64,000 nucleotides of DNA, from assembly GCA_002005505.1 (NCBI GenBank), contig KV908605.1, forward strand, positions 1 through 64,000, given 5' to 3'. A program made the position numbers and the translations under genes. Shown here one piece after another: positions 10,827-26,925 of the stretch. Under the pieces are notes generated by a model that made no database searches, was not told the DNA's origin, and worked only from the letters and a program-made list of their open reading frames with translations. This stretch comes from Botryococcus braunii. Taxonomy: Eukaryota; Chlorophyta; Trebouxiophyceae. The stretch's first letter is position 1, and every line of letters starts with the position of its first letter.

Positions 10827-26925
<16,099 letters not shown>

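Follow-up and report, generated by a model that had tools for sequence, protein, structure and literature searches.

Known histone H3 mimics and how the Botryococcus protein compares

Replacement of lysine 9 (Lys9) of histone H3 by methionine (H3K9M) turns the tail into a trap for Clr4, and in G9a the H3K9M peptide occupies the Lys9 pocket, its residues 3-12 being ordered, and binds more tightly with SAM; the fission-yeast chromodomains tested do not bind the peptide (PMC5030085). Recognition by G9a depends crucially on Arg8 and Lys9 (PMC7948220), and G9a/GLP substrates such as WIZ (PMC10611923) and ATF7IP (PMC6172828) are host proteins. The non-histone K-to-M mimic EZHIP/CATACOMB, an inhibitor of PRC2, is encoded by a host gene of placental mammals and relates to H3K27 (PMC6513997, PMC12713659); in the EZHIP and H3K27 context, Met or Ile inhibits, but Lys or Arg does not (PMC6513997). 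Among transposons, the accessory protein VANC of VANDAL elements makes specific transposons lose their DNA methylation (PMC5735166, PMC10398659) and is not known to mimic a histone.

Here, we describe an accessory protein of copia retrotransposons in the green alga Botryococcus braunii that begins with an H3-like tail and exists in two forms, a K class with Lys at position 9 and a sister M class with Met at that position. As in H3K9M, Met stands for Lys9 in the M class, in an H3-like context and with Arg8 before it; unlike H3K9M, the tail belongs to a retrotransposon protein rather than a histone, departs from H3 by A7G and mostly K4R, has Lys9 in the window copies and is known here from sequence (PMC5030085). 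With EZHIP/CATACOMB, the protein shares K-to-M mimicry outside histones, conserved while the rest diverges, but its bearer is a mobile element and the mimic is N-terminal and in an H3K9 context (PMC6513997, PMC12713659). The QTARKTT of the K class has the ARK-T core of G9a/GLP substrates (PMC10611923, PMC6172828), the match here spanning RTKQTARKxT at the disordered N-terminus of a putative substrate. Like VANC, the protein is a transposon accessory protein, for which an anti-silencing role is proposed here (PMC5735166, PMC10398659). Like the chromoviral integrase chromodomain, it may allow an LTR element to engage H3K9-type chromatin; chromoviruses carry the reader, whereas the copia elements would carry a ligand or an inhibitor. 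Judged from sequence comparison, H3-tail mimicry is well supported, and it suggests that the elements may act as decoys for the host's silencing of jumping genes or jam it. We infer that the protein may be nuclear, bind a methyltransferase or a reader, be inhibitory, target integration, and counter silencing.

The copia elements of the window

The window, a 64,000-nucleotide stretch of contig KV908605.1, contains two copia elements, both on the minus strand, in which the accessory ORF is the first long ORF of the element RNA and lies upstream of gag. Paired LTRs, a primer-binding site, and rve before RVT_2 place them in the Ty1/copia group. In Copia-1, the 5' LTR (21912..22482, 571 nt as aligned) has three mismatches to the 3' LTR (15466..16036), and the flanks read as GAAAG, a 5-nt target duplication. 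The primer-binding site GGTTATGGGCCCA (21899..21911) directly follows the 5' LTR. Next comes the accessory ORF (21571..21843; 90 amino acids plus stop), whose TGA stop overlaps the gag ATG (ATGA). The gag-like ORF (20684..21574) matches Retrotran_gag_2 with an E-value of 3e-5, below the family's curated cut-off, and pol (16175..20655) occupies two overlapping frames (19966-20655 and 16175-20002) with Pol_BBD, integrase, and RVT_2 matches. Copia-2 has a 5' LTR at 36208..36900 (693 nt as aligned; its true edge is probably 36209, at TG), with three mismatches to the 3' LTR (29481..30173), flanks that read as GTAAC, again a 5-nt target duplication, and GGTTATGGGCCCA after the 5' LTR (36196..36208). 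Its accessory ORF (35643..36140) encodes 165 amino acids plus stop, its gag-like ORF (34878..35600) matches Retrotran_gag_2 with an E-value of 8e-6, likewise below the curated cut-off, and its pol ORF (30192..34715) has integrase before RVT_2, the copia order. All of these features are on the minus strand. We take GGTTATGGGCCCA to be a primer site of the type that uses the anticodon region of initiator-Met-tRNA, as in Drosophila copia. Both families also have an internal direct duplication with a spacing of 321/322 bases, lying inside each LTR or at its edge, despite the divergence of the families.

The surroundings hold further elements. A gypsy element close to Copia-2 (38741-43840, minus strand; gag 42338-43840, pol 38741-42295) has a C-terminal chromodomain (PF00385, E 9e-16), which makes it a chromovirus with a possible H3K9me reader beside the H3-mimicking elements. 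Beside Copia-1, a partial reverse-transcriptase ORF (22573-24099, minus strand), matching the C-terminal half of the RVT_1 profile, probably belongs to a non-LTR element. No Pfam match at E ≤ 0.01 was found for the ORFs 10827-11657, 12327-13130, and 25302-26174 (minus strand); of these uncharacterised ORFs, the first is related to the second (26% identity, E 7e-10). Long simple repeats at 49367-50191, 53622-54521, and 61168-62149 produce SLSL, CVCV or RERE open frames in several frames and are not genes.

The accessory protein and its copies

In the model of the Copia-2 window protein, whose mean pLDDT is 76.7, the tail is disordered, with residues 1-16 under 50, and a helical domain spans about residues 20-140, mostly above 80; no known fold was recognised for this domain. 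Pfam scans named no family for the accessory protein. In particular, 15 family members gave no match to the Pfam histone family at E ≤ 0.1, and whole-protein and profile searches found no histone core, the fold that follows the tail in the H3 family.

Hundreds of copies of this ORF are present in the genome. A back-translated RTKQTARK pattern has 297 matches in the 176-Mb genome, among them host H3 genes such as L087 and L088, against none for the reversed control. Of 809 candidate places for the 90-aa Copia-1 protein, 150 were scored, each with 100% protein identity. This protein derives by internal deletion from one of 165-166 amino acids, of which L071, L094, and P0003 are full-length sisters. 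The first 30 of the 297 pattern places comprise 20 of the 90-aa type (one, L081, shortened by a stop), six of a second deleted type of 65 amino acids (L062, L063, L064, L069, L072, and L085), one full-length copy (L071), one broken copy (L070), and the two host H3 genes. Since deleted forms outnumber the full-length form here by 26 to 1, the C-terminal half seems dispensable. The deletions of the two types differ at their left ends and nearly agree at their right ends, and both types retain the tail together with the beginning of the domain.

The K-class tail

The original prediction was that the Copia-1 accessory protein carries RTKQTARKTT at residues 5-14, with RSKQAARKTT as its Copia-2 counterpart. 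Translation of the minus-strand ORFs confirmed both motifs. The Copia-1 ORF begins at 21843 with MAKKRTKQTARKTTNLN..., also given as MAKKRTKQTARKTTNLNV..., and its motif (21802..21831, minus strand) is identical to H3 residues 2-11 at nine of ten positions; the Copia-2 ORF begins at 36140 with MAKRRRSKQAARKTTN..., also given as MAKRRRSKQAARKTTNVDV..., and its motif at residues 6-15 (36096..36125, minus strand) is identical at seven of ten. The codon differences noted between the two elements (CGG/AGA and AGG/CGC, with silent changes at Gln and Ala) were correct on re-reading. An ARK-S/T motif lies within the disordered segment, as QTARKTT or, in the modelled window copy, QAARKTT; the tail of the host H3 genes (L087 and L088) is canonical.

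The Ala in QAARK is private to the window copy. Among the best-scoring 30 of 150 Copia-2 copies scored (798 candidates), QTARK is found in 28, with one QAARK (the window copy) and one QIARK, and the motif reads RSKQTARKTT in 16, RAKQTARKTT in seven, RPKQTARKTT in five, and RSKQAARKTT or RSKQIARKTT in one each. All 30 keep KQxARKTT, and the position of H3 Thr3 is Ser in 18, Ala in seven, Pro in five, and Thr in none. Genome-wide, the K-class pattern with any codon at position 9 has 375 matches (control 8), and with Lys 358 (control 1).

Codons were compared in the three pairs formed by L002 (Copia-2), L094 (full Copia-1), and L095 (P0002 type, start codon lost). Over KQTARKTT, pS is 0.69-0.88, similar to that of the body, and pN is 0-0.055, against 0.19-0.225 in the body, 0.23-0.34 before the tail, 0.12-0.19 after it, and 0.32-0.40 at the C-terminus. 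Only eight of 143 eight-codon windows, KQTARKTT included, have as few nonsynonymous changes. The core departs in two of seven K-class N-termini (L002, L061, and the chosen L111-L115), namely L113 (R8G) and L114 (KQRARKTI). The possibility that other copies lack the motif, or let it vary freely, is contradicted by its retention across copies and families at this low pN, and the same conservation, a mark of purifying selection, supports the proposal of a selected H3-tail mimic.

The M-class tail

A sister clade of the same ORF in the same genome, with more than 200 pattern matches, has Met at position 9, for example MARTRQTGRMSTGG against MARTKQTARKSTGG in H3. This class was drawn from 17 places with less than 50% identity, and all 17 N-termini were read (L091, L093, and L096-L110). 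Five (L104, L105, L108, L109, and L110), identical in DNA, have MARTRQTGRMSTGGNRP; four (L091, L098, L102, and L106) begin with MARTRKTGRMSTGY; and L101, L097, and L093 have MARTRQSGRMSTGSVRP, MGRTRQTGRMSTS, and MGRTRQNGRMGTG, where H3 has MARTKQTARKSTGGKAP. Position 9 is Met in 16 and Ile in one (L107); the start codon is lost in L096 and L099. Four predicted proteins (P0008, P0011, P0012, and P0013) also have Met9. L104 is identical to H3 at 12 of 17 residues. Besides the A7G and K4R changes mentioned above, departures are confined to single positions in P0008 (R7), P0011 (K3), and P0012 (K4), and L107 has I9, R10, and A11. A conserved Met or Ile at the target lysine, the hallmark of K-to-M inhibitors of SET-domain methyltransferases such as H3K9M and EZHIP, is thus found in the M class and not in the window elements, which have Lys.

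With position 9 left free, the M-class pattern matches the genome 204 times (reversed control 1), and with ATG there 203 times (control 0); it requires intact neighbouring residues and misses L107 (via position 10), P0011-like copies, and copies without a start. The six full-length rows of the M class fall into a single clade (100/99), and because their body identity falls to 55%, Met9 has outlasted large divergence. Together, the clade and the near-constancy of Met9 point, provided that the tail was Lys-like earlier, to a single change to Met followed by long conservation. Of 797 candidates, 150 were scored; each has 72% identity or more to P0008, and the tails were read for part of them. Among eight chosen representatives, with L107 left out, pS is 0.58 and pN 0.106 over 12 codons; R2, T3, R4, G7, R8, M9, and T11 are constant as residues, and T3, R4, G7, R8, and T11 vary in codon.

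In the M-class copy C128, the same primer site as in the window elements (C128:53388-53400) lies 53 bases before the ATG (53454), and a frame starting 13 bases past the accessory stop resembles, by eye, the start of the window gag proteins; the copy is incomplete because this frame is soon interrupted. A five-codon upstream ORF (MTRLS*, MTRAK*, MTWAK*, etc.) stands just before most of the M-class starts read (L091, L093, and L096-L110). In the MGRT copies L093, L097, and L100, no stop follows the upstream ATG, which shares the reading frame and could lengthen the tail.

Resemblance to H3 against chance

Each tail was shuffled 20,000 times with the start Met fixed, and the best ungapped score against H3 residues 1-31 was recorded. 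In the K class, the real score was reached by two shuffles for Copia-1, 70 for the window Copia-2, 12 for the commoner Copia-2 form, 10 for P0002, 42 for L111, and 31 for L113. In the M class, it was reached by none for L104, L091, L101, P0008, P0011, and P0012, by one each for L097 and L093, by 12 for L107, and by 27 for P0013. These comparisons indicate an H3 match beyond chance in the K class and a stronger one in the M class. In each of the ten M-class rows tested, the match has offset 0 relative to the start Met; in the K class, two or three extra residues precede the H3 register.

Searches of the PDB gave H3 matches that are individually weak in E-value (0.085-0.98). With phmmer, the 25-residue Copia-1 tail had 108 matches at E ≤ 10 (best E 0.085), and the best 60 consist entirely of H3, its peptides, and its variants. 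Since the search with the whole 90-aa protein produced nothing at E ≤ 1, the signal resides in the tail alone. For the 25-residue tail of L091, the best 60 of 77 matches are all H3, and for that of P0012, all five are. A profile of 15 family members had a single PDB match at E ≤ 1, to histone H3 residues 1-20 (E 0.98); the whole P0011 protein and a six-row M-class profile found no H3 at E ≤ 1.

Outside Botryococcus braunii, the resemblance of relatives to H3 is weaker or absent. The metagenomic P0004 (MARRRQTARRN) and P0006 (MTHHRQTARRSPRGG) have Arg at position 9, with 9 and 120 of 20,000 shuffles, respectively, reaching the real score. The metagenomic P0010 matches H3 poorly (1065 of 20,000), and P0009 and P0015, also metagenomic, look like it by eye; within Botryococcus, copy L092 has no H3-like tail (16,653 of 20,000). 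The tail may be either ancestral and lost in the outside relatives or sharpened in Botryococcus, the midpoint-rooted tree being compatible with both.

Possible activities of the two tails

That the host H3K9 pathway takes the tail for H3, in K and M forms, is a proposal to which we give an even chance. The accessory protein would consist of a disordered H3-tail mimic followed by a helical domain. In the K class, to which both window elements belong, QTARKTT would be a substrate-like peptide and, if methylated, would resemble a chromodomain ligand; it might act as a competitor for the writer or anchor the element protein on heterochromatin proteins. RQTGRMSTGG and similar tails of the M class would be K9M-type peptides that occupy a SET-domain H3K9 methyltransferase at its active site and thereby reduce silencing of the element. 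Inhibition of an H3K9 writer is, for part of the family, a better first guess than the originally suggested modification or reading of the tail because the sister clade has Met at Lys9; for the Lys-bearing window copies, binding as a substrate or to a reader is likelier, since Lys or Arg abolishes EZHIP inhibition (PMC6513997). The M class fits the H3K9M and EZHIP rules, and the K class a G9a-type substrate or HP1-type ligand (PMC10611923); the single Ile9 copy (L107) also fits the K-to-M rules, as weak evidence. Fifteen matches to SET-domain exons (E ≤ 0.01) were found in the Botryococcus genome, without assignment to the H3K9 type, and a Pre-SET search had no match in the genome and none in controls either. 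The full scheme, in which a retrotransposon H3-tail mimic has split into a Lys9 version serving as decoy or tether and a Met9 version that inhibits the host H3K9 methyltransferase in the manner of an oncohistone, each in hundreds of copies, we regard as plausible at somewhat under even chances.

Readers of the H3 N-terminus see the start of H3, and SNAG domains bind an LSD1-type demethylase as H3 mimics. As the M class also starts like H3 (Ala or Gly after Met, Arg2, and mostly Thr3), the tail could be an H3 mimic aimed at another binder of the H3 N-terminus rather than at a dedicated H3K9 writer, which we consider unlikely but a serious contender. Candidate targets under this reading are PHD or ADD proteins that read unmodified H3, a demethylase of the LSD1 type, a MUT9-type H3T3 kinase, an EZH-type enzyme and, in the case of the K class, a reader of heterochromatin that steers integration. 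Thr3 of the eight M-class representatives, with 19 synonymous and no nonsynonymous path changes, speaks for it, as does the Polycomb-type Ezl1 of Paramecium, which makes both H3K9 and H3K27 methylation (PMC6586856). In Chlamydomonas, suppression of the SU(VAR)3-9-type SET3 released tandem transgenes without reactivating dispersed transposons, and the main silencer of such elements may thus be something other than an H3K9 writer; since suppression of SET1 (H3K4) or EZH released retrotransposons and the H3T3 kinase MUT9 is required for long-term silencing, the true target may be another H3 enzyme (PMC6952782). However, Thr3 is kept neither in Copia-2 (Ser, Ala or Pro in the 30 best of 150 scored) nor in P0011 (Lys), the extra residues ahead of the K-class register would break recognition of a free N-terminus, and the constancy of Met9 points to the Lys9 pocket.

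Explanations without mimicry of H3 fare worse. The tail might be an ordinary basic peptide, serving nuclear localisation or RNA binding, that came to look like H3 by convergence of composition: the K class is rich in Lys and Arg (MAKKRTKQTARK), and the metagenomic relatives retain a basic, less H3-like tail. This is quite improbable, as shuffles of the same residues seldom reach the H3 match, the PDB matches listed are all H3, and the M class is less basic yet nearer H3, its eight representatives conserving Gly7, Met9, and Thr11, which are useless for basicity. It is very improbable that the tail is a functionless relic of a captured H3 5' coding end. Over the 51 bases that start with the ATG, L104 does agree with the host H3 genes at 32 (L087) or 30 (L088), but synonymous changes exceed nonsynonymous ones, the likeness ends near residue 17, and Met9 persists in 203 of 204 pattern matches. 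Scarcely credible is Met9 as an alternative start codon instead of a lysine replacement, although one JGI gene model (P0007) begins there: the codons ahead of it are constrained and its context is poor (purine at -3 with G at +4 in none of 14), while the first ATG has a purine at -3 in all 15 copies read, as well as a G at +4 that the pattern demands, and L107 has Ile9 in a frame open over the stretch scored.

Significance

To our knowledge, how transposons counter histone-based silencing is largely an open question. Histone mimicry and K-to-M inhibitors are already known; the mobile-element version at H3K9 appears to be new, no description of a transposon-borne H3-tail mimic having been found in titles and abstract openings of a literature collection without most subscription papers. 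If the proposal is true, an H3K9M-type tail on a mobile element would mean that selfish DNA has found the K-to-M trick known from tumours and EZHIP, and the M-class protein would be a natural, mobile-element-borne K9M inhibitor that blocks the element's own silencing. The natural K9 and M9 forms within one genome would offer a ready-made comparison.
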